Both the position numbers and the translations under genes were made by a program. A stretch of DNA of 64,000 nucleotides from Oceanobacillus oncorhynchi. Lineage in GTDB: Bacteria > Bacillota > Bacilli > Bacillales > Amphibacillaceae. Below the pieces are notes generated by a model. The model had not been told where the DNA came from, did not search any database, and saw only the letters and a list, made by a program, of their open reading frames with translations. The number at the start of each line of letters is the position of its first letter. Position 1 is the first letter of the stretch. Location: the NCBI RefSeq assembly GCF_000821065.1, contig NZ_CDGG01000001.1:3286001-3350000 (forward strand). The letters are read 5' to 3'. Below are positions 9,444-25,520 of the stretch, in pieces.

Positions 9444-9506
9444 TAATATAAAGAATAAAGGAAGTTTAATAATTAGTATTTATAAACTGTGAAGAGAGCG
9501 GATGTT

Positions 9507-10457
9507 ATGCTAAGTTGGGAAGAACGGCGTTTAATGGTTAAAATTGCGCAATTATATTACTATGAAGGATGGACACAAGCAAAAATTGCAAAAAAGCAAA
9601 ATGTTTCACGTCCTATTATCTCGAAATTGTTAAATAATGCCAAAAAAGAGGGTATTGTAGAAATTTATATTAAAGATGAAACGTTACATAGCGTGGAGTT
9701 GGAAAACGCTATTATGAAAAAATTTGATTTGAAAGAAGTTATTGTGGTATCCACAGCGGGCTTTGCTCCTGAGATGATAAAACGCCAGCTGGGAAAATCA
9801 GCTGCTTCTTATATAGCGAATCACTTAACGGATGTAAAAAGCTTAGGGCTTTCTTGGGGAACAACGCTATTATCTTTCGTAGAAGAGTACCCTTATAAAT
9901 ATAAAAAGGACACACATATTGTTCCAATTATTGGCGGAATGGGAAGCGAGTATGTTCATTTACATTCCAATCAATTAGTTTTCCATCTATCACAAAAAAT
10001 GAATTCAAGCTGCTCTTATTTATATGCTCCAGCGATGGTAGAATCTATTGATTTAAAAGAAAGGTTAGTTGAGTCAAAAGATATTTCTCATGTTTTAGAG
10101 CAAGCAAGAAATGTTGATATGGCGGTTGTTGGTCTTGGGAATCCGTTTAAAAGCTCAACAATGGAAAAAATAGGGTATCTAAACCAGAAAGACCTCGCAT
10201 CTTTACGTAAAGCGGGAGCGGTAGGAGATATCAGTTCGAGATTTTACGATGCGATTGGAAAAGAATTAAATCATCCCTTAAACGATCGTGTTATCGGTTT
10301 AGACTTAAATGAAATTAAACAGATACCCGAAGTTATTGGAATAGTGGAAGGCTCATATAAATTAGAAAGTCTAGAAGCGGCATTACAAGGTAAATATTTT
10401 GACGTATTAATTATTGATGATCGAACGGCACAGGAATTGGTTGAAAGCTATATATAA
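9507..10457 (+). CDS. SorC/DeoR-type sugar-binding transcriptional regulator (paralogue 1)
   Basis: 316 residues from ATG 9507. The N-terminal winged HTH shows GWTQAKIAKKQNVSRPIISK, and the rest is the SorC effector domain (LGLSWGTTLLSFVE, PIIGGMGSE, VVGLGNP, AVGDISSRFYD, LNHPLNDRVIG). Proteins of this family bind a phosphorylated sugar or polyol and control its catabolic operon. Aligned by eye it is about half identical to the regulator at 15372-16319, whose start supports my choice over GTG 9489. It ends 1 bp before an IS1182-family insertion and converges on the dehydrogenase/GlpD-like operon. It may control that operon or be an older duplicate; no operator test is possible here. Confidence 0.88.
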   Translation: MLSWEERRLMVKIAQLYYYEGWTQAKIAKKQNVSRPIISKLLNNAKKEGIVEIYIKDETLHSVELENAIMKKFDLKEVIVVSTAGFAPEMIKRQLGKSAASYIANHLTDVKSLGLSWGTTLLSFVEEYPYKYKKDTHIVPIIGGMGSEYVHLHSNQLVFHLSQKMNSSCSYLYAPAMVESIDLKERLVESKDISHVLEQARNVDMAVVGLGNPFKSSTMEKIGYLNQKDLASLRKAGAVGDISSRFYDAIGKELNHPLNDRVIGLDLNEIKQIPEVIGIVEGSYKLESLEAALQGKYFDVLIIDDRTAQELVESYI

Positions 10458-12139: not shown

Positions 12140-12197
12140 AAGGATACCTCGATTCTGTTTTTGTAGTGGTACTTTAACTTTATCAGAAGGTATCCTT
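12140..12197 (-). promoter_or_regulatory. Stem-loop that buries the transposase ribosome site
   Basis: On the minus strand AAGGATACCT followed by TCTG (12197-12184) pairs with CAGA, four unpaired bases, and AGGTATCCTT (12157-12140). The second arm contains the GAGGT ribosome site and abuts the ATG at 12139. Transcripts starting upstream of the element would fold and hide the site, as in IS10 and IS50; this function is inferred. Confidence 0.6.
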
Positions 12198-12235
12198 TTT
12201 TTGTACATTTATTTCATTTTTTTTATCCAATTAAA

Positions 12236-12318: not shown

Positions 12319-13362
12319 TTATTTCCAAGGGGTTACTACGCATTTCAAACCGTTTTTATCAAGAGCGGTTTGAAACGCTTTTTTTGTATTCTGCAAAGAG
12401 AATACATCTGTGACAAATGGAGTGAAATCAATTAGTTCTTCATCAATCCATTTCACTGCTTCTACATGTAAATCACGCGGAGCTCCGTGTGTACCAACAA
12501 CAGTTAATTGTTTATAGATAAAATGATTTGTATTAATTGAAGTTTCAGTAACCTTCTTATTTCCTGAGAAATATAATACTCTTCCTTTTTTTCGTACAAT
12601 TTCCAAAGCCTCATTTTGAACATAAGCAGAGGGAGCAGTTACAATGGCAACATCAGCACCTAATCCACCTGATGCATCAAGAATGGTTTGCAATGTATTA
12701 TCCTTAGTTGGGTCGATAACTATATCAGCGCCGATTTGCTTAGCAAGCTCTTGCCTTGCTTTGGAACGCTGTACAGCAATAACTTTCCCGGCGCCCATTT
12801 TTTTAGCTGCAGCAATATACATACACCCAATTGCGCCTGCTCCATAGACAACGACTGCATCACCGGCATTGATCTTTACTTCAGTCAGCCCGCTAAGCAC
12901 ACAGGCGAATGGTTCAGAAAGGCTCGCTAATTCATATGATGTAGTATCTGCAATGCGCTGGATAGATCCATATTCAATAAAGTTTCGCGGCAGCACCATA
13001 TATTGAGCAAAGCCGCCATCGATTTGGTAGCCAATAGATTCTCCTTTTACACAAAAGTGGCTGTCATTTTTTTGGCAATAGTAGCATTCGCCACAAGGGA
13101 GATGTGCCCAAAGTGTGACGCGGTCTCCTAATTGAAATGATGAAACATATTTTCCTTTTTGGATGATTTCTCCTGCTATTTCATGTCCGATAATTCTAGG
13201 AAAACTTACCCGGCTGTCCCCGTTTTGGAAGATTCGTAAATCGGACCCGCAAACTCCAGTGGCATGAACCTTTAATAATATTTCATGGTCATCGATATCA
13301 GGAATCTCCTTTTCCTGATATTCGAGCTTTTCTTTACCAGTTAATGCGACTGCCTGCATCAT
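12319..13362 (-). CDS. Zinc-dependent medium-chain dehydrogenase (polyol/threonine DH type)
   Basis: 347 residues, MDR superfamily. The catalytic zinc site is ATGVCGSDLR plus IIGHEIAGE, the structural zinc site is the CGECYYCQ...HFC cluster near residue 100, and the Rossmann motif is VVYGAGAIGCMYIAAAKKMG. Such enzymes oxidise polyols or hydroxy acids with NAD+. AGGGGG precedes ATG 13362, 12 bp after the GlpD-like gene, so the two form an operon. Its place beside a SorC regulator and a polyol PTS suggests a polyol or polyol-derived substrate, but the exact one is unknown. Its 3' end lies 10 bp from the IS element. Confidence 0.87.
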   Translation of the reverse strand: MMQAVALTGKEKLEYQEKEIPDIDDHEILLKVHATGVCGSDLRIFQNGDSRVSFPRIIGHEIAGEIIQKGKYVSSFQLGDRVTLWAHLPCGECYYCQKNDSHFCVKGESIGYQIDGGFAQYMVLPRNFIEYGSIQRIADTTSYELASLSEPFACVLSGLTEVKINAGDAVVVYGAGAIGCMYIAAAKKMGAGKVIAVQRSKARQELAKQIGADIVIDPTKDNTLQTILDASGGLGADVAIVTAPSAYVQNEALEIVRKKGRVLYFSGNKKVTETSINTNHFIYKQLTVVGTHGAPRDLHVEAVKWIDEELIDFTPFVTDVFSLQNTKKAFQTALDKNGLKCVVTPWK

Positions 13363-13374
13363 ATTTGGTTCCCC

Positions 13375-15030
13375 CTAATCTTCTTTGAAATGGAGTGCTT
13401 TTTTGATTTGGTATTGCATTTGACGGATTTCTTGTTCTTTAACGGCGTCGTTCCACTGAAGAATATCAGCAATCTCTTTAGTAACTATTTCTAATGTTTC
13501 TTTAACAAGCTCTAAATCAAATAATAAATAGCTTGTACGACGATCATAGAAATCAGTTAATGTTGAAACCATTTCATGCTCGATTGTATAACGAAGTTCT
13601 CCTAAAATGTTCCTGTGTACGTGTTTTAGTTGCTGCCCGTTATAGCTATCTATTGTCTGCAGTAATTTTTCAGTGTTTGATCCATAACGCAATACATAGT
13701 TAGTGATGTTCTGCTGTGAAATTTCTAAATGACTATATCGTCCATGAATCCGATCCGCATACTCATAAAGTTCTTTAATATTGTTAAATTGTGATCCGGA
13801 TAGTTTTAAATTTGCTGTTTTAGTTGTAGGAAGATTTAATTTGTGTTTTTTATCGATATAAGTTAGAATGCGATCTGCCATTTTACGATAACCAGTCAAT
13901 TTTCCGCCAGCAATGGTAACAACACCAGAATTTGATTCGAAAATTTCATCATGACGAGATAATTCGGAAGGTTTTTTTCCGCTCTCGCCAATAAGCGGCC
14001 GAATTCCTGCCCAACTGGATGATATATCCTGAACCTGTAATTTTACATTTGGAAACATATCCTTTAAGCAGCCTAATAAATATTGAACTTCGCTAAGATG
14101 CACATGTATATCATCCATATCTTTATTGTACAGTGATTCTGTTGAACCGACATACGTACGGTTTCCTACTGGAATAACGGCTATCATTCTTCCGTTATGT
14201 TGAAAATAAACAGAGGATTTCACTGGTAATTTATCATAAGGAAATACAATATGAATTCCTTTCGCAAGAACCATATGCTTCCCGGTTATTTTCTCATCCT
14301 TCTTACGAACTTCATCAACCCAGGGGCCAGCAGCATTTACAATGTGTTTAGCATAAACAGTGAATGTCTGGTTAGCACAGTGGTCTCTTCCTACGATTCC
14401 TTTAACCATGTTATTTTCATCTTTTAGGAATTCGGTCATTTCGGCATAATTTAAAATTACAGCGCCTTTTTCTTGTGCTGTTTTTGCTACTTCCAGTGTT
14501 AAACGGCTGTCGTCTGTTCTATATTCAATATAACATCCGCTTCCTTGAACGATCTTTTTGTTAAAAAGGGGTTCGTTTTGAAGCGTTTTCTTTTTTCCGT
14601 ATAGGCTATGGCGTTCCTCTTTTTTTACACCGGCAAGTTTGTCATAAAGGGTGAGTCCGGCTTTTAAAGTTACTAAATTATAAGACTCTTTTTTTATCAA
14701 AGGAAAATTCATAGTAATCGGGTAAACGAGATGAAGGGCATTATTATAAACAATATCGCGTTCTGATCCAGTTTCTTTTACAACAGGAAAATCAAAGTTC
14801 TGTAAATATTTTAAACCTCCATGGATTAATTTTCCTGAGCGGCTGCTTGTTCCTGATGCGAAGTCATAACGTTCTATTAAAGCTACTTTTAGTCCTCTTG
14901 TGATAGCATCTAGGGCAATTCCGCTTCCTGTGATTCCTCCGCCAATAATCAATAAATCGAATTGTTGTTCTTCTAATTGGTGAAGGGTGCTGTCACGATG
15001 AAGTGTAGAAAAAGAATGATTATGAGACAT
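13375..15030 (-). CDS. glpD: GlpD-family FAD-dependent polyol-phosphate dehydrogenase
   Basis: 551 residues, full length for aerobic glycerol-3-phosphate dehydrogenase. The FAD dinucleotide motif is LLIIGGGITGSGIALDA, followed by GTSSRSGKLIHGGLKYL, VYPITMNFPLI, YRTDDSRLTLEVA, the SSWAGIRPLIGE segment and the C-terminal DAO_C domain. GlpD oxidises glycerol-3-phosphate at the membrane and passes electrons to quinone; homologues such as EryB oxidise other polyol phosphates. No glpF/glpK accompanies it. It is instead cotranscribed with a zinc dehydrogenase and its promoter carries the same operator pair as the PTS operon. A substrate other than glycerol-3-phosphate is therefore plausible. The start ATG 15030 has AGGAGG. 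Confidence 0.85.
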   Translation of the reverse strand: MSHNHSFSTLHRDSTLHQLEEQQFDLLIIGGGITGSGIALDAITRGLKVALIERYDFASGTSSRSGKLIHGGLKYLQNFDFPVVKETGSERDIVYNNALHLVYPITMNFPLIKKESYNLVTLKAGLTLYDKLAGVKKEERHSLYGKKKTLQNEPLFNKKIVQGSGCYIEYRTDDSRLTLEVAKTAQEKGAVILNYAEMTEFLKDENNMVKGIVGRDHCANQTFTVYAKHIVNAAGPWVDEVRKKDEKITGKHMVLAKGIHIVFPYDKLPVKSSVYFQHNGRMIAVIPVGNRTYVGSTESLYNKDMDDIHVHLSEVQYLLGCLKDMFPNVKLQVQDISSSWAGIRPLIGESGKKPSELSRHDEIFESNSGVVTIAGGKLTGYRKMADRILTYIDKKHKLNLPTTKTANLKLSGSQFNNIKELYEYADRIHGRYSHLEISQQNITNYVLRYGSNTEKLLQTIDSYNGQQLKHVHRNILGELRYTIEHEMVSTLTDFYDRRTSYLLFDLELVKETLEIVTKEIADILQWNDAVKEQEIRQMQYQIKKALHFKED

Positions 15031-15048: not shown

Positions 15049-15118
15049 TTACAAATGTTCAAAAACAAAAATTTTGTAATTTTATAATGAGTATATAATT
15101 TGGGGAGTAACAAGTCAA
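15049..15118 (-). promoter_or_regulatory. Promoter and SorC-type operator pair of glpD-like operon
   Basis: Minus-strand TTGACT (15113-15118) and TATACT (15090-15095) are 17 bp apart. Downstream lie ACAAATGT (15051-15058) and the degenerate AATTTTGT (15070-15077), whose centres are 19 bp apart, matching the spacing of operator pairs at 16358-16389 and 18421-18453. Confidence 0.65.
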
Positions 15119-15302: not shown

Positions 15303-15358
15303 TGAATGCGTTTGCATAAAATCTGAAGAAATATGATATAATCGTGTTACATTTGTAA
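15303..15358 (+). promoter_or_regulatory. cre site, -10 box and operator upstream of second SorC regulator
   Basis: On the minus strand 15317-15303 reads ATGCAAACGCATTCA, a full match to the CcpA cre consensus WTGNAANCGNWNNCW. TATAAT is at 15337-15342 without a good -35. TTACATTTGTAA, the locus operator, follows at 15347-15358. This suggests glucose repression plus autoregulation. Confidence 0.6.
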
Positions 15359-15371
15359 GGGGGTTGAAATT

Positions 15372-16319
15372 ATGAATATTGAAGAAAGAAGATTAATGAC
15401 AAAAGTAGTCAAACTGTATTATTTAGAAGGTTGGACACAAACGGAAATTGCAAAAAAAATTAACAAATCCAGGCCAATTGTCTCTAAACTTCTGAAGCAG
15501 GCAAAAGAAAAACAAATAGTTGAAATATACTTGAAGGATAGTACTGTACATACGGTTCAACTAGAGAGAGAACTGGAGCAAAAATATAATTTGAAAGAAG
15601 CAATTGTGATTGAATCCGCACATAGCGGCCCAGAATTAATTATGCGCAAACTTGGGGTAGTGACAGCGAGATATATTGAAAAAAAACTGGATCAAATAAA
15701 TACAATTGGTATTTCATGGGGAACTTCTGTATATGCAGTTGTCGAAGCTTTTCAATATCAAGCAAATAAACCCGTTCATCTTATTCCGCTGATTGGCGGT
15801 ATTGGACAGAACTATATTGGTTACCATACCAATTCACTGCTTTTTGAGCTTGCTCAGAAGTTAAATTCAACTTCTTCCTATCTGTATGCTCCAGCAGTTG
15901 TCGAAAGTGAAGAGTTAAGGAATCATATTGTACGTTCTAAAGATGTGAAAGAAGTTCTTACTAAAGGAAAACAAGTTGATATAGCGATCGTAGGTATTGG
16001 GAATCCAGGAATACAAAACACGATGACAGAAATGGGTTATTTATTGGAAGAAGATCAGCAAAGTCTTTTGAATGCTGGGGCCATTGGTGATATCAATTCA
16101 AATTTCTTTAATAAAGATGGTGAACTCGTTGACCACCCATTAAATAATCGCACAGTAGGAGTTAAGTTGGAAGATATTAAAAATATTTCAGAAGTAATTA
16201 CAATTGTAAGAGGAGATTACAAATTATTCCCGTTGCATGTTGCACTTGAAAATAACTTTATCACTACATTAGTTATTGATAGTGATACCGCAGAGAAACT
16301 TTTGAAAAAATACAAATAA
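15372..16319 (+). CDS. SorC/DeoR-type regulator of the polyol PTS operon (paralogue 2)
   Basis: 315 residues. The N-terminal HTH includes GWTQTEIAKKINKSRPIVSK; the effector domain carries IGISWGTSVYAVVE, LIPLIGGIGQNY, IVGIGNPG, GAIGDINSNFF and DHPLNNRTVGV. It is about half identical to the regulator at 9507-10457. The start ATG 15372 follows AAGGGGG. It reads straight into gutM and the srl genes, 88 bp apart, with a promoter and two operators between. By position it is the specific regulator of the PTS/DRL/dehydrogenase operon; family members respond to the phosphorylated substrate. Whether it activates or represses is not shown. Confidence 0.9.
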   Translation: MNIEERRLMTKVVKLYYLEGWTQTEIAKKINKSRPIVSKLLKQAKEKQIVEIYLKDSTVHTVQLERELEQKYNLKEAIVIESAHSGPELIMRKLGVVTARYIEKKLDQINTIGISWGTSVYAVVEAFQYQANKPVHLIPLIGGIGQNYIGYHTNSLLFELAQKLNSTSSYLYAPAVVESEELRNHIVRSKDVKEVLTKGKQVDIAIVGIGNPGIQNTMTEMGYLLEEDQQSLLNAGAIGDINSNFFNKDGELVDHPLNNRTVGVKLEDIKNISEVITIVRGDYKLFPLHVALENNFITTLVIDSDTAEKLLKKYK

Positions 16320-16322
16320 ATG

Positions 16323-16389
16323 TTGACAAAGTTTTGAAAGCGTTTTATTATTCTATTTACAAACGTAAATTAATATTACATTTGTAAAT
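16323..16389 (+). promoter_or_regulatory. Promoter, cre-like site and paired operators of gutM-srl operon
   Basis: TTGACA 16323-16328 and TATTAT 16346-16351 are 17 bp apart. Between them TGAAAGCGTTTT (16335-16346) is a near-consensus cre, placed to block RNA polymerase. Downstream are TTTACAAACGTAAAT (16356-16370) and ATTACATTTGTAAAT (16375-16389), near-palindromes with centres 19 bp apart. Confidence 0.75.
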
Positions 16390-16407
16390 ATAAGAGGGGG
16401 ATAAGTT

Positions 16408-16806
16408 ATGTGGGGAACTTTCATTTTAATTTTTGCCTTTGTGTGGGGAGTACAGTTTCTAATGACACAACTGCAAGTAAAGCATTATCGTTCAAACATA
16501 AAGAGCTTTACCAATCGAAAGTCAGGTTTTTTAGGAACAGGTTATTTTAAAAAAAGGTTTGGAACAGGGGCGTTGGTTTTATTAGTATCTGATGAAAATT
16601 TGCAGGTAGTTGAAGCAAAAATAATGAAAGGGATTACCGTTTTTGCTCGCTTTAAAGATAGAAAAGAATTAATCGGCAAGGATTTATTTGAAGTTGAAAA
16701 TATGGAGATTCTCGATGCTAAAGAGAAAAATGCCGTTCAAGGAGCAGTCAAAATGATTGAAAAAGAGTTTGAGAAGAAAGGGGAGAAAGCAGCATGGATT
16801 TCTTAA
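16408..16806 (+). CDS. gutM: Glucitol operon activator GutM-like protein
   Basis: 132 residues with an N-terminal membrane segment (FILIFAFVWGVQFLM) followed by QLQVKHYRSNIKSF and a small soluble domain ending ..MIEKEFEKKGEKAAW. This is the GutM/SrlM family, found with glucitol-type PTS genes and described in enterobacteria as an activator. The ribosome site AGAGGGGG lies before ATG 16408. It is the first gene of the operon and overlaps srlA by 13 bases. Its real role in Gram-positives is less clear; a membrane-linked accessory function of the PTS is possible. Confidence 0.85.
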   Translation: MWGTFILIFAFVWGVQFLMTQLQVKHYRSNIKSFTNRKSGFLGTGYFKKRFGTGALVLLVSDENLQVVEAKIMKGITVFARFKDRKELIGKDLFEVENMEILDAKEKNAVQGAVKMIEKEFEKKGEKAAWIS

Positions 16807-17324
16807 TCAGTATTGCAGAAGGATTTATTGGAATGTTTGAAGAAGGCGGAGAAACTTTCATGGGGCTAGTAACGGGTATTATTCCAATGCTCGTTGTATT
16901 AATTACAGCAGTAAATGCTTTAATCAAATTTATTGGGGAAGACAGAGTAAATAGTTTTGCACAAAAGTGTACAAAATATTTTGTTTTACGATATACTGTT
17001 TTTCCGTTTTTAGCCGTTTTTTTCCTTACTAATCCAATGTGCTATACATTTGGACGTTTTTTACCGGAGAGACAGAAACCAGCTTTCTATGATTCAGCTG
17101 TTTCATTTGTCCATCCAATAACCGGGCTTTTCCCACATGCAAACCCGGCAGAATTATTTGTATATATGGGAGTAGCAGCTGGAATTACAGAACTGGGTTT
17201 ATCATTAGGGCCGTTAGCTTTAAGATTTCTGTTGGTCGGAATTGTCGTTATGTTGATTAGAGGAGTTGTAACAGAGATGATTACAGCCCGTATGTTAAAA
17301 AATAAGCAAGACAGCGCAGCGTAA
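16794..17324 (+). CDS. srlA: PTS glucitol/sorbitol-type IIC2 component
   Basis: 176 residues, matching the SrlA/GutA IIC family: EGFIGMFEEGGETFMGLVTG near the start, then the RYTVFPFLAVFFLTNPMCY and GRFLPERQKPAFYDSA segments and several hydrophobic helices. It forms part of the membrane channel that moves the polyol while it is phosphorylated. ATG 16794 lies inside the end of gutM with GGGGAG upstream, so the two are translationally coupled. The family covers sorbitol, but homologous systems take other polyols. Confidence 0.92.
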   Translation: MDFLISIAEGFIGMFEEGGETFMGLVTGIIPMLVVLITAVNALIKFIGEDRVNSFAQKCTKYFVLRYTVFPFLAVFFLTNPMCYTFGRFLPERQKPAFYDSAVSFVHPITGLFPHANPAELFVYMGVAAGITELGLSLGPLALRFLLVGIVVMLIRGVVTEMITARMLKNKQDSAA

Positions 17325-17353
17325 TAGTTGAACAATTATGGGAGGGATAGAGA

Positions 17354-18406
17354 GTGAGTGAATTTAAAGCGGTAAAAGTTCATAAAGGACCTTCTGGATG
17401 GGGTGGTCCATTAGTAATTCAGCCTAGTGAAGAACAAAAATATATTATTTCTGTAACTGGCGGGGGAATCCATGAAGTTGCACAAGCTTTAGCAGAACAA
17501 ACGGGAGCTATTGCGATAGATGGTTTTGAAAAGTCTGTACCGAAAGAAGAAATAGCAGCGGCAGTTATTAATTGCGGTGGAACGGCGAGAAGCGGGGTAT
17601 ATCCGCGAATGGGAGTAAAGACAATTAACACATTTAGTAATTCGCCATCCGGGCCATTAATGAAGTTTATTAATGAAGGTAATTTCGTATCAGGAGTAGA
17701 GAGTCAAAGTCAATTTGAAAGTGTGGATGCATCTGGAGAAGCAGTTACAACGGCAAAAGTTGAGAATGATGATGCACCAGATTTAATGGATAAAAAGGTT
17801 GCCCAACAGGTAAAAGAAGAAGCAAAATCAAAAGTAGCTGAATCTAAGAACGGTAATGGAAAGAAAAAGAATCCGATAATGAGATTTATTGAGATCCTGG
17901 GAAATAAAGTGGGGAATGTCGTAAGTGTCTTCTTCCAATCAGGACGAGATACAATTGAAACGGTTATTAAAAATATCTTGCCGTTTATGGCTTTTGTAAG
18001 CGCATTAATGGGTATCATCACATTTACAGGAATCGGTGATATGATTGCTAATTTAGTTGCTCCGTTAGCAACAAGTCTTATTGGAATGCTAATCCTGTCA
18101 TTTATCGCTGCCATTCCAGTAATATCTCCATTACTCGCACCGGGCGCAGTAATTGCTCAGGTTGTCGGAGTACTCATTGGTGTGGAAATCGCAAATGGTA
18201 ATATACCTCCACAAATGGCATTACCGGCATTGTTTGCTATTAATCCGCAAGTTGGTACAGATTTTGTGCCAGTTGGATTAACGCTTGGGGAAGCAGAAGC
18301 AGAAACGGTTGAGGTTGGAGTTCCGGCAGTATTATTCTCTAGATTAATTACTGGACCAATAGCAGTAGTTATTGCTTATCTTGCTAGTTTTGGACTTTAC
18401 AGTTAA
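17354..18406 (+). CDS. srlE: PTS glucitol/sorbitol-type IIBC component
   Basis: 350 residues. The IIB domain at the N-terminus has the phospho-cysteine Cys74 in [16 protein letters not shown]; a charged, Lys/Glu-rich linker (about residues 130-175) leads to the membrane IIC domain with IRF-type helices and [31 protein letters not shown]. It receives phosphate from the IIA protein encoded downstream and phosphorylates the incoming polyol. GTG 17354 follows GGGAGGGATAGAGA. The linker is unusually long and charged compared with SrlE of enterobacteria (about 319 residues). Confidence 0.92.
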
Positions 18407-18420
18407 TTAACTCGAGATTT

Positions 18421-18475
18421 TTTACAAATGTAAATATGTATAACATTTGTAAAAAGGTGAGATGTCATGTATAGT
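18421..18475 (+). promoter_or_regulatory. Internal operator pair and possible promoter before srlB
   Basis: TTTACAAATGTAAAT at 18421-18435 and AACATTTGTAAA at 18442-18453 have centres 19 bp apart. TTGTAA (18447-18452) and TATAGT (18470-18475), spaced by 17 bp, could be a promoter overlapped by the second operator. It would give separate control of srlB and the catabolic genes. Confidence 0.55.
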
Positions 18476-18541
18476 AGATTTATAAAATAAAGATTATTAG
18501 AAATTCTTACAGAAAATTTTGTGCGTTGAAGGGTGATTTAG

Positions 18542-18907
18542 ATGAGTCAATTACAATTAGATTTAAATGTAACTGAAGTTGGGGAAGATGTAGAGCTGAT
18601 GAAAGAGGAAGGTATATTGATTTTATTTAATAATACCGTGCCAGAAGATTTGAAAACGATTGCTGTTATTCACGATGGCGCATTTCATCAAGACATTAAG
18701 TCTGGCGATAACATGATAATCAACGGTGAACTTTTCCGTATCCTTCATGTTGGAGATAAAGCAAATGAAACGTTGTCACAGCTAGGCCATGCCACATTTA
18801 ATTTTGAAGGTGAAACGGAATATGATATGCCGGGTACGGTTTATCTGGAAAAAAAAGAAATTCCTCATATAGAGACAGGTTCTACAATTTCATTTCACAG
18901 ATTATAA
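18542..18907 (+). CDS. srlB: PTS glucitol/sorbitol-type IIA component
   Basis: 121 residues, of the SrlB/GutB IIA family. The expected phosphohistidine is His44 in AVIHDGAF, which aligns with His43 (CFIHCHGE) of the E. coli protein; LSQLGHATFNF and MPGTVYLE are further family segments. It takes phosphate from HPr and hands it to the IIB cysteine. GAAGGGTGA lies before ATG 18542. It is separated from srlE by a 135-bp region that carries operators, and followed 26 bp later by the DRL-like gene. Confidence 0.92.
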   Translation: MSQLQLDLNVTEVGEDVELMKEEGILILFNNTVPEDLKTIAVIHDGAFHQDIKSGDNMIINGELFRILHVGDKANETLSQLGHATFNFEGETEYDMPGTVYLEKKEIPHIETGSTISFHRL

Positions 18908-18933
18908 ATTAGTCATAGAAGGAGTGCGTGTCC

Positions 18934-20223
18934 ATGTTAAATTTAAATAGAAAACTTGAAAAATTACAAAACGAAGGATCTTATATCAAAGTTGGTCTTG
19001 TAGGCGCCGGACAAATGGGAAGAGGGATGATTTCACAAATTGAGGGTATGAAAGGGATGCGGGTAGTAATTACTTCCGATTTAGCAGTAGAGAATGTGAC
19101 AAATGCTTATAAACATGCTGGAATCGATGCTGCCAGTATTCAAGAAACAAATGATAAAGAGGCAGCGTCTAAAGCGGTTCAGGAAGATAAAGTAGTTGCT
19201 ACAAAAGATATGAAACTTGTAACCTCTCTCCCTGAAGTAGACGTTGTAGTAGATGCTACGGGTATTCCAAATGTAGGAGCAGAAATTGCCTGGGATTCTA
19301 TTTTAAATAATAAACATATTATTATGTTAAATGTTGAAGCGGATGTTACGGTCGGACCGCTGCTCAAAAAAATGGCGGATTCTGCCGGCGTCGTATATAC
19401 AGGATCTGCAGGGGATGAGCCTGGAGCAATTATGGAATTATATGATTTTGCGGATGCGATGGGATTTGAAATTGTAGCACTCGGAAAAGGGAAAAATAAT
19501 CCGTTAAATTTAGAAGCGAATCCGACAACGGCGGAAGCAGAGGCTAAAGAAAAAGGGTCATCCCCTAAAATGCTTGCATCCTTCCAAGATGGAACAAAAA
19601 CAATGGTTGAGATGAATGCTGTTGCAAATGCAACTGGATTTTCACCAGATAAGCCCGGAATGCACGGTTTTGAAGCCTCTGTTCAAGAATTGCCAAAAGT
19701 CTTTCTTGAAAAGGACAAAGGCGGAGAGGTAAATGGAAAAAGAATTGTAGAGTTTATCAACGGAATCGCACCAGGCGTATTTGCCATCATTGCTTCTGAT
19801 AAAGAAGAAGTTAATGCAGAAATGCAATATTTAAAAATGGGAGATGGACCAAATTATGTGTTATATCGTCCATATCATTTAACTAGTTTAGAAACGCCAT
19901 TATCCATTGCTAAAGCATATATTGATCATGAGGCAACGATTGCTCCTTATTATGGATTACAGGCAGAAACGGTTACAGTAGCTAAAAAAGATTTGAAGGA
20001 AGGGGAGCATCTGGATTATATCGGCGGCTATACCGTTTATGGACATATTTTAAAAGCTGAAGAAGCTAAAGAACAAAAAGCTCTTCCGCTAGGGTTGGTT
20101 GATAGAAATGTTGTATCGAAGAAAGATATTAAAAAAGGTGAGATTATTACCTATGATGCCGTAGAACAAACAGAAGAATCTACTATTTGGAAGCTTCGTT
20201 CTATTCAAGATAGAGAGTTTTAA
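18934..20223 (+). CDS. DXR-like (DRL-type) NAD(P)-dependent oxidoreductase with SAF domain
   Basis: 429 residues. The N-terminal homoserine-dehydrogenase-like NAD(P) domain has KVGLVGAGQMGRGM, then DATGIPNVGAE and MNVEADVTVGP; the catalytic domain has GSAGDEP and GKGKNNPLNLEA, with FSPDKPGMHG; a SAF domain lies at the C-terminus (KKDLKEGEHLDYIGGYT). These features match DRL, the second class of 1-deoxyxylulose-5-phosphate reductoisomerase described in Brucella; relatives of unknown substrate are common. A Bacillaceae should have normal dxr elsewhere, so this copy within a PTS operon is probably catabolic, oxidising a branched polyol phosphate. ATG 18934 is preferred over GTG 18928 because GGAG is 9 bases before it. 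Databases often call such proteins homoserine dehydrogenase; the rest of that enzyme is absent. Confidence 0.82.
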   Translation: MLNLNRKLEKLQNEGSYIKVGLVGAGQMGRGMISQIEGMKGMRVVITSDLAVENVTNAYKHAGIDAASIQETNDKEAASKAVQEDKVVATKDMKLVTSLPEVDVVVDATGIPNVGAEIAWDSILNNKHIIMLNVEADVTVGPLLKKMADSAGVVYTGSAGDEPGAIMELYDFADAMGFEIVALGKGKNNPLNLEANPTTAEAEAKEKGSSPKMLASFQDGTKTMVEMNAVANATGFSPDKPGMHGFEASVQELPKVFLEKDKGGEVNGKRIVEFINGIAPGVFAIIASDKEEVNAEMQYLKMGDGPNYVLYRPYHLTSLETPLSIAKAYIDHEATIAPYYGLQAETVTVAKKDLKEGEHLDYIGGYTVYGHILKAEEAKEQKALPLGLVDRNVVSKKDIKKGEIITYDAVEQTEESTIWKLRSIQDREF

Positions 20224-20329
20224 TAAACTGGGGTTAATCAGGATGTGTTTTGCGCTTTAGCAAGGCATATTCATTTACACACATTTTTACATTTGTGCCT
20301 AATAAGAACAAAAGGAAAGGATGAAATTT
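20224..20329 (+). promoter_or_regulatory. Gap before E1 alpha with one operator-like site
   Basis: TTACATTTGTG at 20287-20297 matches the locus operator ACATTTGT. No terminator is visible, so the dehydrogenase genes may be read from upstream and also have their own regulated start. No good -35/-10 pair was found. Confidence 0.4.
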
Positions 20330-21310
20330 ATGTCAAAATTAAACGTTCCAGATAAGATTACAAATGAAAAACTGGTAGAACTCTATAAACAAATGTGGAC
20401 AATCCGTTTTTTCGAAGAGAAAGTAGATCAATTCTTTGCAAAAGGTAAAATCCATGGAACAACGCACTTAGCAGTAGGACAAGAAGCAAGCGCTGCAGGC
20501 GTATGCGCTTTACTAGAGAAAGAAGATAAAATTACCAGCACGCATCGCGGGCATGGTCATTGCATCGCTAAAGGAGCTACGCCGGATAAAATGATGGCAG
20601 AGTTATTCGGCAGAACAACAGGCTATTGTAAGGGAAAAGGCGGATCCATGCATATTGCAGATGTAGAAATGGGTAATCTTGGTGCAAACGGTATCGTTGG
20701 CGGAGGGATTCCATTAGCTGTCGGCTCGGCATTAACAGCATCGATGAAAAAGTTAAATTATGTAACTGTCTGCTTTTTTGGGGATGGCGCTACGAATGAA
20801 GGAAGTTTTCATGAAGCAGTGAACCTTGCTGCAGTTTGGAATTTGCCAGTTATCTTTGTTTGCGAAAACAACCAATACGGCATGTCTGGCCCTGTGAAGG
20901 AAATGGTGAAGATAGAGGATATTGCAACAAGAGCAAAATCCTATGGCATCCCTGGAGTGGTAGCTGACGGAAATGACCTTATTGAAATGATGAATGTCAC
21001 AAATGATGCGCTTGAGCGTGCTAAAAACGGGGAAGGACCAACCTTAATTGAAGCAAAAACCTATCGTTGGAAGGGTCACTCGAAAAGTGATGCTAAAAAG
21101 TATCGTACCCGTGATGAAGAAACAGAATGGAAAGAAAAAGATCCAATCAAACGACTTAAGGAACTGTTAATCAGTGAATCTATTATCACGGAAGAACAGG
21201 CGGAATCACTGCGAAAAGATGCTTTAAAAGAAATTGAAGACGCAGTTGCTTTTGCTGAAGAGGGCCCGATGCCTACGAAGGGTGATTTATTAACGGATGT
21301 ATTTGCTTAA
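20330..21310 (+). CDS. acoA: TPP-dependent acetoin-dehydrogenase-type E1 alpha subunit
   Basis: 326 residues, the size of AcoA. The thiamine-diphosphate motif starts GDGATNEGSFHEAVN at 151 and ends with ENNQYG at 179-184. IHGTTHLAVGQEA, THRGHGHCIAKG and GGSMHIAD are family segments. With E1 beta it forms the decarboxylating/cleaving component that forms hydroxyethyl- or acetyl-TPP and passes the two-carbon unit to the E2 lipoyl arm. ATG 20330 has AAAGG 9 bases before it and is preferred to ATG 20321. It is 106 bp after the DRL-like gene and split from E1 beta by a structured element. It may act on a phosphorylated ketose rather than acetoin, which is my inference. Confidence 0.88.
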   Translation: MSKLNVPDKITNEKLVELYKQMWTIRFFEEKVDQFFAKGKIHGTTHLAVGQEASAAGVCALLEKEDKITSTHRGHGHCIAKGATPDKMMAELFGRTTGYCKGKGGSMHIADVEMGNLGANGIVGGGIPLAVGSALTASMKKLNYVTVCFFGDGATNEGSFHEAVNLAAVWNLPVIFVCENNQYGMSGPVKEMVKIEDIATRAKSYGIPGVVADGNDLIEMMNVTNDALERAKNGEGPTLIEAKTYRWKGHSKSDAKKYRTRDEETEWKEKDPIKRLKELLISESIITEEQAESLRKDALKEIEDAVAFAEEGPMPTKGDLLTDVFA

Positions 21311-21354
21311 AGTGAACGTTCAAAAAGTCCTCAAATGATAAGCGGCAGGAAAAG

Positions 21355-21423
21355 GAGCTTCTACTAAGAACGCCCACGTCGTGTGGGCAACGTAGAAGCC
21401 ACCGCATCCTGCGGAAGTGCGTT
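21355..21423. repeat. Hairpin unit 1 of the MITE-like element
   Basis: Stem CTTCTAC/GTAGAAG encloses a second stem GCCCAC/GTGGGC and is followed by a small stem CCGCA/TGCGG. It aligns with unit 2 at an offset of 110 bp. Confidence 0.75.
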
Positions 21424-21464
21424 GACGTGTTTTTTCCGATACTCACGTATCTATACACATAGGG

Positions 21465-21533
21465 GAACTTCTGTTAATACCGTCCACGTCCTGTGGACAA
21501 CACAGAAGTCACCAGATCCTGTGGAAGTCCGTT
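21465..21533. repeat. Hairpin unit 2 of the MITE-like element
   Basis: Outer stem CTTCTGT/ACAGAAG, inner stem GTCCAC/GTGGAC. Compared with unit 1 the changes keep pairing on both sides (AC/GT to GT/AC in the outer stem, C-G to T-A in the inner). Confidence 0.75.
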
Positions 21534-21613
21534 CATAAAAAACACGTCGCCTTGAACTTCTTGCTTCTAATTTGATTACTTTTTGAACCTGTATTTAATA
21601 AGGAGGAAAGAAA

Positions 21614-22597
21614 ATGAGAGAATTAACATATTTAGAAGCAGTTCGTGAAGCAATGAGCCAAGAGATGCGTCAAAATGAAGATGTTTTTATTCTTGGTGAA
21701 GATATAGGGGTATATGGAGGAGCTTTTGGAGTTACCCGGGGAATGATTGAAGAATTTGGTCCGGAGCGAATACGAAATACGCCAATCAGCGAATCTGGGA
21801 TTGCCGGTGCGGCAGTTGGTGCAGCGTTGACTGGGATGCGCCCGATTTTAGAGCTGCAGTTTTCTGATTTTATTACGATTGCGATGGATCAAATGGTGAA
21901 TCAGGCCGCGAAGATTCGTTATATGTATGGCGGAAAAGGAAAAGTTCCGATGGTTTTACGTACGCCAAGCGGATCAGGTACAGGAGCAGCTGCACAGCAT
22001 TCGCAAAGTTTAGAGGCTTGGGTGGCTCATGTTCCTGGTTTGAAAGTTGTTCAGCCTTCTACAGCGCATGATGTAAAAGGACTATTAAAAGCAGCGATGG
22101 ATGATGATAATCCGGTGATTTTTTATGAGCATAAATTACTTTATAAAACAAAAGGGGACGTACCGGAAGAGCAATACAGCATCCCGCTGGGAAAGGCAGA
22201 TATTAAGCGGGAAGGAACAGATGTAACAATCGTAGCAACAGCTATTATGGTACACCGTGCTTTAGAAGCGGCTGAGGAGCTGGAGAAGGAAGGCATCAGT
22301 GCAGAAGTTGTTGATCCGCGCACATTAGTACCGCTGGATACAGAAACAATTATTCAATCTGTTTCCAAAACATCTCGTTTAGTTGTTGTCCATGAAGCGG
22401 TAAAAAGAGGCGGTTACGGTGCAGAGATTGCCAGTATGATTGCAGAGAGTGAAGCATTTGATTATTTAGATGCGCCGATTAAACGATTGGGCGGTGCCTC
22501 TTCGCCGATTCCATATAACCCGGAATTAGAGAAAATGCATGTGCCGCAGGTTCCAGATATTATCCAGGCAGTGAAGGAAACATTAAATAAAGCATAG
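21614..22597 (+). CDS. acoB: Acetoin-dehydrogenase-type E1 beta subunit
   Basis: 327 residues, typical of the transketolase-like beta chain: [54 protein letters not shown], then [19 protein letters not shown] and the C-terminal domain with [13 protein letters not shown] and [13 protein letters not shown]. The pyrophosphate/pyrimidine site lies at its interface with E1 alpha. AGGAGG is 8 bases before ATG 21614. It is close to E2 (15 bp). Pyruvate and branched-chain dehydrogenases share this fold; the alpha-chain length, gene order and E2 type favour the acetoin-dehydrogenase group. Confidence 0.88.
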
Positions 22598-22612
22598 AAA
22601 GGAGGGATTCAG

Positions 22613-23965
22613 GTGGCTAAAGAAATATTTATGCCTAAGCTAAGCAGTACGATGGAAGTGGGCACCCTGCTTCAATGGTTTAAAGAAGAGGGAGATTCTG
22701 TTGAAATGGGGGAGCCCCTATTCGAAATTATGACGGATAAAATCAATATTGAAGTTGAGTCATATGAAGAGGGCATACTGCTAAAGAAATATTTTAAAGT
22801 GGATGATGAGGTCGAAGTAAATGCTTGTATTGGTTATATAGGAGAAGCAGGAGAAAAAGTTCCTGATAATCCGCCGGCAGCTTCCGAAGAATCTGAATCA
22901 GTAGAAAATGTCCAGGAAGAAGCATCTGCTGAGGGACAGGAGCAAACAGTTAGTACCGATTCTGATCAAGAAGAAAATAAGGACGGAAAAGTCAGAGCGA
23001 CTCCTGCTGCCAGACGAATTTCCCGCGAGAATGATCTTTCCTTATCCGCTATTTCCGGCTCTGGTCCAAATGGAAGGGTACATCAACAGGATGTCGAAGC
23101 AGCTCTTGTCGCAGGTGTGATAGCTGTGACGCCGTTGGCAGAGAAAATAGCAGCTGACCATGGAATTGATTTAAATCAAATTACGGGTACAGGGGCGCGC
23201 GGAAAAATTGAAAAGCAGGATGTACTTTCTTATCTGGAAAAAGCAGATGAAATTTCAAAAGAAACGGAATCTGAGCCAGCAGAACGTATAAAGCTCAAAG
23301 GACTTCGTAAAGCGGTTGCTGACAAAATGGTACAAAGCGTTCAATCCATCCCGCATGTAACCTTGACAAGCGACGTGGATATGACGAATGTTATTGACCT
23401 GCGTAAATCATTGCTTCCTGTGATTGAAAAAGATACGGGATACCGGTTATCCTTTACCGAAGTGATTATAAAAGCAACTGCCAATGCACTTATGAAGCAT
23501 CCAAAATTAAATGCCTCTTTAATTGGTGATGAAATTGTGATGAACAATGAAGTCAATATCGGACTGGCAGTTGCTGTAGATAATGGATTGATTGTGCCTT
23601 CTATTAAAAATGTAAATCAAAAAGGTCTGGCTGCGTTAACTCAAACTAGTAAAGAACTGGGCAAGAAGGCAAGAGAAAATAAACTAAAACCGGATGAAAT
23701 GCGCGGAAGTACCTTTACCATCAGTAACTTGGGAATGTATGCCATTGATGCCTTCACTCCTATTATTAATGGACCGGAAACAGCGATTTTAGGTGTTGGA
23801 AGAATTGTTGAAAAGCCTGTTGTTGTAGATGGAGAACTGACAGCTCGTCCAATGATGGTGCTTAGTCTGTCCTTTGATCACCGTGCAATTGATGGTGCAC
23901 CAGCTGCAGCATTCTTAACGGACTTGAAGGCGAATCTTGAAAATCCATACAGTTTATTAGTTTAA
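22613..23965 (+). CDS. acoC: Dihydrolipoamide acetyltransferase E2 with two peripheral-binding domains
   Basis: 450 residues. Lipoyl domain at about 1-80 with the lipoyl-lysine Lys43 in MTDKIN; acidic flexible linker 85-125; a first E3/E1-binding domain at about 127-165 (ATPAARRISRENDL, ISGSGPNGRVHQQDV); a second at about 172-208 (VTPLAEKIAADHGIDL, ITGTGARGKIEKQDV); then the catalytic acyltransferase domain, with SFDHRAIDG near the C-terminus. It transfers the acetyl group from E1 to CoA. GTG 22613 follows AAAGGAGGG. The two tandem binding domains are less usual and may serve to hold E1 and E3 at the same time. Confidence 0.9.
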   Translation: MAKEIFMPKLSSTMEVGTLLQWFKEEGDSVEMGEPLFEIMTDKINIEVESYEEGILLKKYFKVDDEVEVNACIGYIGEAGEKVPDNPPAASEESESVENVQEEASAEGQEQTVSTDSDQEENKDGKVRATPAARRISRENDLSLSAISGSGPNGRVHQQDVEAALVAGVIAVTPLAEKIAADHGIDLNQITGTGARGKIEKQDVLSYLEKADEISKETESEPAERIKLKGLRKAVADKMVQSVQSIPHVTLTSDVDMTNVIDLRKSLLPVIEKDTGYRLSFTEVIIKATANALMKHPKLNASLIGDEIVMNNEVNIGLAVAVDNGLIVPSIKNVNQKGLAALTQTSKELGKKARENKLKPDEMRGSTFTISNLGMYAIDAFTPIINGPETAILGVGRIVEKPVVVDGELTARPMMVLSLSFDHRAIDGAPAAAFLTDLKANLENPYSLLV

Positions 23966-23977
23966 GGGGCGGAGTAA

Positions 23978-25351
23978 ATGACAAAATTTGATGTAGCGAT
24001 AGTTGGCGGCGGTCCCGGAGGATATGTATCGGCAATCCGAGCTGCAAAGCTGGGCTTGTCTGTTGCGCTGGTAGAAGGAAGAGACCTGGGTGGAACTTGT
24101 TTAAATCGTGGCTGTATTCCTTCTAAAACATTATTAAAAAATGCAGAAGTGATCAATCAAATAAAAGATGCGAAAAAGTTTGGAATCCAGGTTGATTCAT
24201 ATTCATTGGAATTAAAAACAATGATTAATAGAAAGAATCAGGTTATTCAGCAGCTACAAAACGGGATTAACAGTCTATTAAAAGCGAATAAAATAAAGCT
24301 ATATTCTGGTTATGGAACAGTGGATAATCAAAAAATAATTACGGTTGATACCGGAGAGAAAACAGAAAAGCTGGAAGCGGAATCTATTATTCTGGCAAAC
24401 GGCTCCAAGCCTTTTGTTCCTAACCTTCCGGGGCTTAATGAAGTTCCTTATTATACAAGTGATACGATATTCGATATAGAAGAGGTCCCGGAGCATTTAG
24501 TTATTGTCGGCGGCGGGGTCATTGGATTGGAAATCGCCTGCATTTTTCAAAGCTTAGGAACGAAAGTAGAAATTGTGGAAATGGCAGATCGTATCATTCC
24601 TGCAGAAGACAAGGAAGCAGCTGATTATCTAGCAAATGAGCTGAAAAGAAAAGGGATAGGCATGCATACCAGTGCAAAGGTGCTGGAATTGAAGAAGGAT
24701 AAGAAAACGGTGGTCAAATTAGAAAAGGACGGAAAAGAAACGAGTCTGGAAACAGATAGTGTCCTTGTTTCTGTGGGACGCGAACCTAATTTGACCGGAT
24801 TGAATGACCTTTCTATTAACTATGAAGGCAAATTTGTCAAAGTGGATAAATCGATGCAGACCAATGTAAAAGGGATTTATGCTATCGGAGACTTAATTGG
24901 CGGATACCAGCTTGCACATGCAGCGAGTGAAGAAGGAATTCGTGCAGTCAGTCATATTTTAGGTGAAACACATCCAAAAGATTTCATTATGCCACGCTGT
25001 ATTTATACATTTCCTGAGATTGCAAGTGTTGGGATGACAGAAGAGCAGGCGAAAGCAGCGGGCTATCAGGTGAAAGCTCAAAAAGTAGACTTAGCCGCTA
25101 ATGGAAAAGGAATAGCTTCTGCCGAAAACAGCGGATTTATGAAAATTATCTCCGAAGAAAAGTATGGTGAAATCCTCGGTGTGGTGCTTGCTGGCGCCCA
25201 TGTGACGGAAATGATCAGTCAGGCAACTTCTTTCATGTACTTAGAAGGGACGGTAGAAGAGTTGGAGGATATGATTTTTCCGCATCCAACCTTAGCGGAG
25301 GGAATGTTTGAAGCAGCTGCAAAATGGCTGGATAAAGGGATTCATTATTAA
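23978..25351 (+). CDS. lpdA: Dihydrolipoamide dehydrogenase E3
   Basis: 457 residues. FAD motif DVAIVGGGPGGYVSAIRA at the N-terminus, redox disulfide Cys41/Cys46 in GGTCLNRGCIPSKT, NAD motif LVIVGGGVIGLEIAC, FAD-contacting YAIGDLIGG and dimer-interface histidine segment FPHPTLAE. It reoxidises the dihydrolipoyl arm of E2 with NAD+. It follows E2 by 12 bp and completes the dehydrogenase complex. A strong terminator closes the operon 120 bp downstream. Confidence 0.93.
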   Translation: MTKFDVAIVGGGPGGYVSAIRAAKLGLSVALVEGRDLGGTCLNRGCIPSKTLLKNAEVINQIKDAKKFGIQVDSYSLELKTMINRKNQVIQQLQNGINSLLKANKIKLYSGYGTVDNQKIITVDTGEKTEKLEAESIILANGSKPFVPNLPGLNEVPYYTSDTIFDIEEVPEHLVIVGGGVIGLEIACIFQSLGTKVEIVEMADRIIPAEDKEAADYLANELKRKGIGMHTSAKVLELKKDKKTVVKLEKDGKETSLETDSVLVSVGREPNLTGLNDLSINYEGKFVKVDKSMQTNVKGIYAIGDLIGGYQLAHAASEEGIRAVSHILGETHPKDFIMPRCIYTFPEIASVGMTEEQAKAAGYQVKAQKVDLAANGKGIASAENSGFMKIISEEKYGEILGVVLAGAHVTEMISQATSFMYLEGTVEELEDMIFPHPTLAEGMFEAAAKWLDKGIHY

Positions 25352-25471: not shown

Positions 25472-25520
25472 ACCGATCCGAAGAGCTGGATATATTTCCA
25501 GCTCTTCGGATCGGTCTTTT
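25472..25520 (+). terminator. Terminator of PTS/DRL/dehydrogenase operon
   Basis: ACCGATCCGAAGAGCTGGA and its reverse complement form a 19-bp stem with a six-base loop (25472-25515), followed by CTTTT. An additional weak inverted repeat (GTGCTGTATA / TATAGCAGCAC) lies at about 25361-25410. Confidence 0.9.

Follow-up and report, generated by a model that had tools for sequence, protein, structure and literature searches.

The window, the whole 64-kb stretch of Oceanobacillus oncorhynchi DNA that was analysed, contains an operon headed, 5' of gutM, by a gene for a SorC/DeoR-type regulator. The initial annotation had placed gutM-srlA-srlE-srlB, DRL and E1a/E1b/E2/E3 in this order on one strand, and all of these genes were recovered at the expected places on the forward strand, with open frames and tight spacing; the single strong terminator that it described is a 19-pair stem. 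The features are given below, with a strand for all but the operator sites and the repeat element.

15347-15358: operator, exact copy, 5' of the regulator gene
15372-16319, forward strand: SorC/DeoR-type sugar-binding transcriptional regulator (Pfam Sugar-bind, E 8.9e-72)
16323-16351, forward strand: promoter-like site TTGACA-17-TATTAT 5' of gutM, with 11 of 12 consensus matches; such sites are not above chance in the region
16357-16387: operator pair 5' of gutM, 16357-16368 (1 mismatch) and 16376-16387 (exact)
16408-16806, forward strand: gutM (Pfam GutM)
16794-17324, forward strand: srlA, glucitol-type PTS IIC (Pfam EII-GUT; NCBIfam)
17354-18406, forward strand: srlE, glucitol-type PTS IIB(C) (Pfam EIIBC-GUT; NCBIfam)
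18422-18452: operator pair 5' of srlB, 18422-18433 (exact) and 18441-18452 (1 mismatch)
18542-18907, forward strand: srlB, glucitol-type PTS IIA (Pfam PTSIIA_gutA; NCBIfam)
18928-20223, forward strand: DRL (DXR type II), MEP <-> DXP reductoisomerase family (Pfam DRL_cat, E 3.5e-67)
20287-20298: weak operator copy 5' of E1a (2 mismatches)
20321-21310, forward strand: E1a, E1 alpha of a ThDP-dependent complex (Pfam E1_dh; GHSKSD loop at residues 252-257)
21311-21610: 300-base dispersed repeat separating E1a from E1b, with copies elsewhere in the genome
21614-22597, forward strand: E1b, E1 beta (Pfam Transket_pyr and Transketolase_C)
22613-23965, forward strand: E2 (Pfam 2-oxoacid_dh, with lipoyl and E3-binding domains)
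23978-25351, forward strand: E3, dihydrolipoyl dehydrogenase (NCBIfam TIGR01350, lipoamide dehydrogenase, 548 bits)
25472-25515, forward strand: intrinsic terminator, 19-pair stem followed by a T-rich tail

At the family level, the IIA, IIB and IIC gut subunits of a glucitol-type PTS and GutM were all present (Pfam, NCBIfam), and E1a, E1b, E2 and E3 made up a full set of the acetoin/PDH type by the same two collections. The ATG at 18934 was judged the likelier start of DRL. The repeat element between E1a and E1b had 20 matches in the genome, five of which (itself included) spanned at least 170 bases.

The operator that the initial annotation had proposed to be shared, TTACAAATGTAA, was borne out by three mismatch-free copies in the 64 kb (15347, 16376 and 18422), all within intergenic stretches of the operon; with up to two mismatches, 27 matches were found in the window against 14.3 expected. 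A site or pair 5' of srlB was also seen in loci L040-L047 and L116, and the copies preceding E1a in other loci are better than the one in the window. Across other genera, 53 of 63 TTACA-NN-TGTAA sites lay within 350 bases upstream of genes of the system, 32 times the density elsewhere. Operator-type sites precede both E1a and gutM in five Brevibacillus loci, and both DRL and E1a in Paenibacillus. The SorC-type regulator presumably binds this shared operator and would control the whole operon through it.

The DRL of the window is a full-length member of DXR-II, having both the Rossmann domain (Pfam NAD_binding_3) and the DRL catalytic domain (DRL_cat), and aligned along residues 3-429 with the Brucella DRL of known structure (3upl/3upy; E 4e-107). 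Both proteins have E174, F178, K191, K193, G121, T229, H250, R320 and Y322; however, V351 of the Brucella enzyme is Q in the window DRL, which counts against the pathway proposed below, as does the variability of position 250, where H was found in 60 of 79 E1-linked DRLs. In contrast to the Brucella protein, the window DRL lies in a PTS catabolic operon of a host with no detected MEP pathway, and the direction proposed for it is from MEP to DXP. Residues K191, K193, T229, G121 and R320 were kept in all 79 E1-linked DRLs, the window's included; the available text of an earlier DXR-II study assigns T229, K191 and K193 to ligand binding and R320 to the dimer interface (PMC3847144). Among eight remote DRL_cat proteins, T229 was present in one, K191 in five, and K193 and R320 in six each.

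A search of genome neighborhoods, suggested in the initial annotation as support for a link between DRL and E1, showed the two near each other in many genomes, excluding an association found only here. Within flanks of up to 10 kb per side, 54 of the 80 named DRL loci contained E1, 67 glucitol PTS and 51 both; E1 was not found in the retrieved DNA of the other 26, some of which is incomplete, with two loci reaching E2/E3 at the edge. At least 20 of the 27 genomes of the order with a strong DRL had an E1_dh match within 15 kb, compared with 1.26 expected (counted by eye), and none of the 15 with only a remote DRL_cat protein had one among the matches listed. The linkage spans phyla. In the phylum sample, E1 accompanied DRL in 17 of the 32 loci retrieved and was not found in the DNA retrieved for the remaining 15; DRL and E1 also lay together in one Actinomycetota contig. 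Candidatus Hakubella has regulator-DRL-E1a-E1b-E2, and its contig breaks off just after an E3-like gene has begun. On alphaproteobacterial plasmids, DRL-E1a-E1b-E2 was contiguous in seven of eight loci retrieved via DRL, with one exception, two of the eight having been chosen because their records were E1a matches too. Gene order is reshuffled among Planococcus, Marinococcus, Salinicoccus, Salibacterium and Brevibacillus.

DRL loci usually provide for phosphorylation, through a glucitol PTS, an MFS transporter with an FGGY kinase, or an ABC transporter with a PfkB-type kinase. MFS and FGGY kinase genes adjoin DRL in some loci, and a transporter with a kinase sometimes replaces the PTS; L079 and L251 have PTS genes alongside MFS and kinase genes, hence there is no replacement in these two. 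Uptake and phosphorylation, DRL and E1-E2 thus form a recurrent set with one operator type, a set absent from some DRL loci. The DRL loci without E1 speak against the pathway proposed below, as do the other partners of DRL in other lineages. These are FSA and transketolase in Ligilactobacillus, and TIM-like, class II aldolase and YjbQ-like proteins in L201; in Listeria the PTS is the sole partner, with a tagatose-bisphosphate aldolase further along, and some Tissierella DRL loci had no evident partner genes.

Gene content and its conservation lead us to propose that the operon probably encodes a pathway dedicated to the breakdown of a 2-C-methyl tetritol, with 2-C-methyl-D-erythritol as the most likely one. 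The type of pathway is well supported; 2-C-methyl-D-erythritol as the exact substrate, the oxidative direction of DRL and DXP as the substrate of E1 are each putative. In the first step, the glucitol-type PTS would import the polyol and phosphorylate it to the 4-phosphate (MEP), which DRL would then oxidize to DXP. The lipoamide-dependent E1-E2-E3 complex, predicted to be kin to acetoin dehydrogenase yet distinct from it, would split DXP at C2-C3 on ThDP, freeing glyceraldehyde 3-phosphate and passing the two-carbon unit to CoA to give acetyl-CoA and NADH. The DXR equilibrium favors MEP, and the second step would therefore have to be pulled by the third. Going by its title, a 1986 report by Yokota and Sasajima, cited in PMC3424233, is said to describe PDH and acetoin dehydrogenase forming 1-deoxyketoses, that is, the same bond and the same enzyme class in the synthetic direction; free 1-deoxyketoses were formed there, whereas the operon would carry out the physiological breakdown of a phosphate ester. 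The Brucella erythritol pathway (eryABCD) likewise has tetritol uptake, phosphorylation and oxidation and a SorC-type regulator, but is not known to involve a skeleton rearrangement by DRL or a lipoate complex. The reverse of the cleavage has precedent, because PDH forms 1-deoxyxylulose from pyruvate and glyceraldehyde and a mutant PDH raised DXP about 20-fold in vivo, as given in the available text of PMC3424233.

The same logic could apply to a different 2-C-methyl polyol, be it 2-C-methyl-threitol, one of the L series or a methyl pentitol, yielding another 1-deoxyketose phosphate for the complex to cleave. Stereochemistry and chain length are not fixed by sequence, the Oceanobacillus group has a divergent GlpD-like and Zn-alcohol dehydrogenase pair that could serve a related polyol, and E1s of the window's type also occur beside galactitol-type PTS genes with no nearby DRL (L229, L236). 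However, DXP/MEP is the only DRL activity reported in the available text of the literature consulted, and the ligand-binding residues of DRL are conserved; we regard a different methyl polyol as possible but rather unlikely.

Acetoin dehydrogenase cleaves CH3-CO-CHOH-R on ThDP, and its genes (aco, with AcoR) have the same E1 alpha/beta, E2 and E3 layout as the operon. E1-E3 might be acetoin dehydrogenase of the ordinary kind, or else an additional pyruvate dehydrogenase, and simply lie next to the PTS and DRL. The nearest NCBIfam models for E1a and E1b are those of pyruvate dehydrogenase, with E1a just under the cut-off (388.9 vs. 393.85 bits) and E1b above its own, and the Priestia record names its E1a pdhA. 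Apart from that of the operon, just two full-length E1 alpha genes occur in the window genome (34 and 33% identity), therefore no second acetoin-type E1 alpha was found in it; these two group with PDH/branched-chain rows, far from the operon E1. In the tree, the other clade nearest to the window's E1 is the AcoR-linked acetoin type, but the AcoR-linked E1s form one clade (99% SH-aLRT; six AcoR-linked rows plus L215 and L234, AcoR being identified by eye from its N-terminus and the tree made by a quick method with no bootstrap) and the window E1 falls outside it. Identity to the six AcoR-linked enzymes is 50-54% in E1a and 50-53% in E1b. Residues 254-256 of E1a read S-[KR]-S in all 84 window-type rows and F-E-G in all six AcoR-linked ones, although the window-type rows were not resolved as a single clade (two changes), which counts against the proposed pathway. 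Four genomes (G043, G205, G260 and G284) each carry a window-type E1 plus an AcoR-linked E1. The operon further differs from acetoin dehydrogenase in having a SorC-type regulator in place of AcoR and in its linkage to PTS and DRL genes, a linkage that outlasts gene shuffling and spans phyla, and the same operator type lies 5' of PTS, DRL and E1 genes in other genera. Neither acetoin nor pyruvate is known as a PTS polyol. The option of acetoin itself beside an unrelated PTS, listed in the initial annotation, is thus unlikely, and we consider an ordinary acetoin or pyruvate dehydrogenase very improbable. Counting against the proposed pathway, window-type E1s without a nearby DRL were also found on a C. 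difficile plasmid, with TRAP-transporter-like genes in L232, and with neither these nor galactitol-type PTS genes in L233 and L235. The S-K-S loop of E1a may bind phosphate, a role that is weakened because TRAP uptake, seen beside one window-type E1, does not phosphorylate.

The specificity of this DRL being putative, the substrate could also be a branched polyol with no methyl group, such as apiitol, from which DRL would make a normal ketopentose phosphate, to be turned into glycolyl-CoA by the complex. A lipoate complex would be unnecessary for this route, because transketolase alone should deal with such a phosphate; the E1 clade nearest to the window's type also acts on a methyl ketone, so that a methyl-free substrate seems highly unlikely compared with a 2-C-methyl tetritol. 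The least probable explanation, that DRL makes MEP for isoprenoids as in Brucella beside unrelated neighbors, draws on the conserved DXR-II signature and on the rescue of DXR-deficient E. coli by eleven members of the clade described in the available text of PMC3847144, but can be dismissed as far as four family searches reach: DRL cannot serve isoprenoid synthesis here because the searches of the window genome detected HMG-CoA reductase but neither DXR-I nor IspG nor a full-length DXS. The rest of the MEP pathway was thus not found with the window DRL, and DXR-I was present in the other 38 of the 42 DRL_cat genomes with IspG.

The literature consulted regards DXR-II as an alternative enzyme of isoprenoid synthesis. 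The available text of the same study leaves open why it is scattered, why it occurs together with DXR-I, and why it is found in Finegoldia, which has neither the MEP nor the MVA pathway, and in Chloroflexus, which has MVA alone (PMC3847144). A 2026 review, in its available text, gives no defining DXR-II pattern besides overrepresentation among certain pathogens (PMC13001223). We tentatively suggest that DXR-II may have been catabolic at its root and recruited to isoprenoid synthesis where DXR-I was lost, an idea that we rate somewhat short of an even chance. If true, a catabolic root would account for the patchy spread and for the occurrence of DXR-II where a genome lacks the MEP pathway, and a catabolic role could answer the distribution puzzle.

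Our literature search found no published description of such a pathway. Methyl tetritols are made by plants and are also formed from isoprene in the atmosphere. If the proposed pathway operates, it would offer a candidate way for bacteria to use methyl tetritols and a sink for plant 2-C-methylerythritol, possibly also for the 2-methyltetrols arising from isoprene in air. Lipoate complexes would gain a new activity, DXP dehydrogenase (acetyl-transferring), and engineered isoprenoid hosts a means to feed or drain DXP.

The gene content described in the initial annotation of this operon (window 15372-25351, plus strand) was borne out: a SorC-type regulator, gutM and three glucitol-type PTS genes are followed by a type II DXP reductoisomerase (DRL) and by genes for E1a, E1b, E2 and E3, after which a single 19-pair terminator closes the operon in a genome of 4.6 Mb. 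The annotation had proposed catabolism of 2-C-methyl-D-erythritol, and from sequence comparison a three-step route from this polyol is the most likely reading. The PTS would bring in 2-C-methyl-D-erythritol as 2-C-methylerythritol 4-phosphate (MEP), DRL would oxidize and rearrange MEP to 1-deoxyxylulose 5-phosphate (DXP), and the complex would split DXP into acetyl-CoA and glyceraldehyde 3-phosphate. The stereochemistry of the polyol is left free by the sequence. The equilibrium of the MEP to DXP step is unfavorable, and cleavage by the complex, in effect the DXP-synthase carboligation in reverse coupled to oxidation, would pull it. As a precedent, one study reports that purified pyruvate dehydrogenase made 1-deoxyxylulose from pyruvate and glyceraldehyde, and pyruvate dehydrogenase E1 mutants raised DXP about 20-fold in vivo (PMC3424233). 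Among the open-access matches listed, no title or opening of an abstract dealt with bacteria growing on methylerythritol, with a catabolic operon containing DRL or with the cleavage of DXP, which does not prove absence in print.

The operon and its surroundings in the window include the following additional features:

9489-10457 and 10478-12208: second SorC-type regulator and transposase-like gene
12319-15030, minus strand: genes for a GlpD-like flavoprotein and a Zn-alcohol dehydrogenase, transcribed away from the operon
21311-21610: repeat element separating E1a from E1b, with 20 matches genome-wide

Five of the 20 matches to the repeat element, itself included, span at least 170 bases. The GlpD-like/Zn-alcohol dehydrogenase pair is kept beside the operon across the Oceanobacillus group and may serve a related polyol; an operator-like site with two mismatches lies near it (window 15049-15060). 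Such a pair also follows the cluster in Shinella, at only 29-30% identity. The transposase-like gene, recognized by eye, separates the second SorC-type regulator from the alcohol dehydrogenase gene in the window. Regulators related to the SorC-type ones were present in 101 of 135 loci, the operon's own kind counted in.

A scan of named genomes found a relative encoded in 94 stretches, of which the best 80 were retained as DRL loci. Among these best 80 of 94, the closest DRL was that of O. jeddahense (90% identity to the window's DRL), E1 lay inside the fetched flanks in 54 loci, a glucitol PTS was present in 67, PTS and E1 occurred together in 51, and a related regulator was found in 64. Gene order varied by lineage, being PTS-DRL-E1-E3-regulator in Planococcus and E1-E3-regulator-PTS-DRL in Marinococcus, while the E1 genes are divergent from PTS-DRL in Salinicoccus and E1-E3 are inserted between srlE and srlB in Salibacterium. 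Within the sample of 299 genomes of the order, 42 had a DRL_cat match, comprising 27 with a strong DRL and 15 with a remote homolog only. Among the matches listed, 20 of the 27 strong-DRL genomes have an E1_dh match on the contig that carries DRL and no more than 15 kb from it, vs. 1.26 expected from E1_dh match number and genome size; this is a family assignment, and the type of the near E1 was checked for part of the 20. None of the 15 remote-homolog genomes had one within 15 kb of the DRL_cat gene among the matches listed, the nearest being 16.5 kb away in G276 and belonging to the acetoin clade. Four of the seven strong-DRL genomes lacking a near E1 (G205, G260, G043 and G240) encode a window-type E1 elsewhere. 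A phylum sample gave a match in 39 of 398 genomes, and E1 was present in 17 of the 32 loci fetched from it (32 of the 45 places listed). In a set of 129 loci encoding a DRL-like protein, a total that includes the window and one duplicate, E1 was present in 59/69 at ≥60% identity to the window's DRL, 13/32 at 50-60%, 8/20 at 40-50% and 1/8 below that. E1 linkage requires 15 gains or losses on the DRL tree, so DRL ancestry alone is no predictor of E1.

From the distribution of operators, the PTS, DRL and E1 genes look like one regulon. Exact copies of TTACAAATGTAA in the window are confined to the intergenic stretches of this operon. The motif TTACA-NN-TGTAA was surveyed in the named loci (best 80 of 94), five further loci and the window; 53 of its 63 copies lay at most 350 bases upstream of a gene of the system, at a density 32 times that elsewhere. 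Both E1a and gutM are preceded by such a site in five Brevibacillus loci, as are both DRL and E1a in Paenibacillus; in several Planococcus loci a site precedes E1a. We infer that the regulator binds this predicted operator.

The cluster extends to other phyla and to plasmids. Candidatus Hakubella (Actinomycetota) carries regulator-DRL-E1a-E1b-E2 and then an E3-like gene of which only the beginning fits on the contig; this contig is short and showed no transporter. A DRL match was found in 111 plasmid records, and eight alphaproteobacterial loci, part of this set, were fetched via DRL. E1a, E1b and E2 directly follow DRL in seven of the eight, with one exception; two of the eight were picked since their records were also E1a hits, and the other six gave five linked. 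A ninth such locus, fetched via E1a, is linked too. Uptake genes vary: Rhizobium sp. K1/93 and Terrarubrum have a glucitol PTS with its own ptsP, R. sophoriradicis and Agrobacterium have an ABC transporter and PfkB-type kinase at the cluster, and three loci (L076, L083 and L209) have an MFS transporter and FGGY kinase next to DRL with PTS genes absent from the fetched DNA. Two further loci (L079 and L251) have this transporter and kinase next to DRL plus PTS genes. A phosphorylating step usually accompanies the cluster, and since either a PTS or a transporter-plus-kinase can occupy this position, the DRL substrate is suggested to be a phosphate ester. Cofactor genes also adjoin the cluster, for thiamine synthesis in Rhizobium sp. 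K1/93 and for lipoyl synthase in Agrobacterium.

Other DRL lineages, in Listeria, Ligilactobacillus and loci with TIM-like or aldolase genes, have other partners, so DRL may supply several routes. In four loci (L199, L201, L205 and L212), DRL and PTS clusters have as neighbors a YjbQ-like protein (by eye), a triose-phosphate isomerase of archaeal type and a class II aldolase, families that were tested for L201 only; what DRL makes there perhaps enters another route. On a Ligilactobacillus salivarius plasmid (L250), a single run of genes encodes DRL, a glucitol PTS, fructose-6-phosphate aldolase and a transketolase, but no E1.

Plain acetoin, one of the alternatives in the initial annotation, is unlikely, judging from a tree and from the neighborhoods of E1 genes that do not lie near DRL, and the complex does not appear to be the usual acetoin dehydrogenase. 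Six E1 sequences beside AcoR-like activators, recognized by eye, formed one clade with two others (99% SH-aLRT), and the window's E1a fell outside it; window-type E1 sequences did not resolve as a single clade. At E1a residues 254-256, all 84 window-type sequences have S-K-S (R in one), whereas all six AcoR-linked sequences have F-E-G; S-[KR]-S is also found in E1a from ten plasmid sequences. Both types occur together in four genomes (G043, G205, G260 and G284). The nearest NCBIfam models for E1a and E1b were pyruvate dehydrogenase ones. In an alignment with human pyruvate dehydrogenase E1 alpha, the loop corresponds to GHSMSD, which contains phosphorylation site 1 and lies at the channel to the active site. 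The conserved positive residue would fit an anionic substrate. Locus L232 combines S-R-S with genes resembling a TRAP transporter, a caution that an anion other than phosphate could be involved. Window-type E1 was also found without DRL nearby, beside galactitol-type PTS genes, on a C. difficile plasmid (L248) and at L229 and L236, the PTS type coming from a family search for L236 only. This arrangement would be consistent with a 1-deoxyketose being imported directly and phosphorylated on entry, and suggests a second entry point for such a phosphate.

An isoprenoid role of DRL was ruled out for the window's genome by four family searches. Among the 42 DRL_cat genomes, 38 have DXR-I and IspG with no HMG-CoA reductase match, and the remaining four, the window's included, have HMG-CoA reductase without DXR-I and IspG. 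Searched with the DXS N-terminal model, the window's genome gave at best 36.6 bits, in a 283-residue frame, so no full-length DXS was found there. The DXR-II signature residues are intact in the window's DRL despite no detected MEP pathway. Elsewhere, DRL lies near an IspG-like gene at L115 and near IspD/IspF-like genes at L084, L198 and L101 (by eye, from N-termini); in Salinicoccus and spirochaetes, such neighbors may reflect chance adjacency to common housekeeping clusters.

No constant partner beyond PTS, DRL and E1-E3 emerged; the GlpD-like/alcohol dehydrogenase pair, galactitol-type PTS genes and a zinc-ribbon-like protein recur inconstantly. The last, found in or near these operons, had no Pfam family above cut-off and no match in the window's genome in a search run without a positive control. 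Examples are:

L049:11505-11852: zinc-ribbon-like protein
L182:4253-4567: zinc-ribbon-like protein

With these and others, it was present in 49 of 135 loci; it is about 105-125 residues long and has two C-x2-C pairs, and the motif SKP[YF]R is conserved in it.
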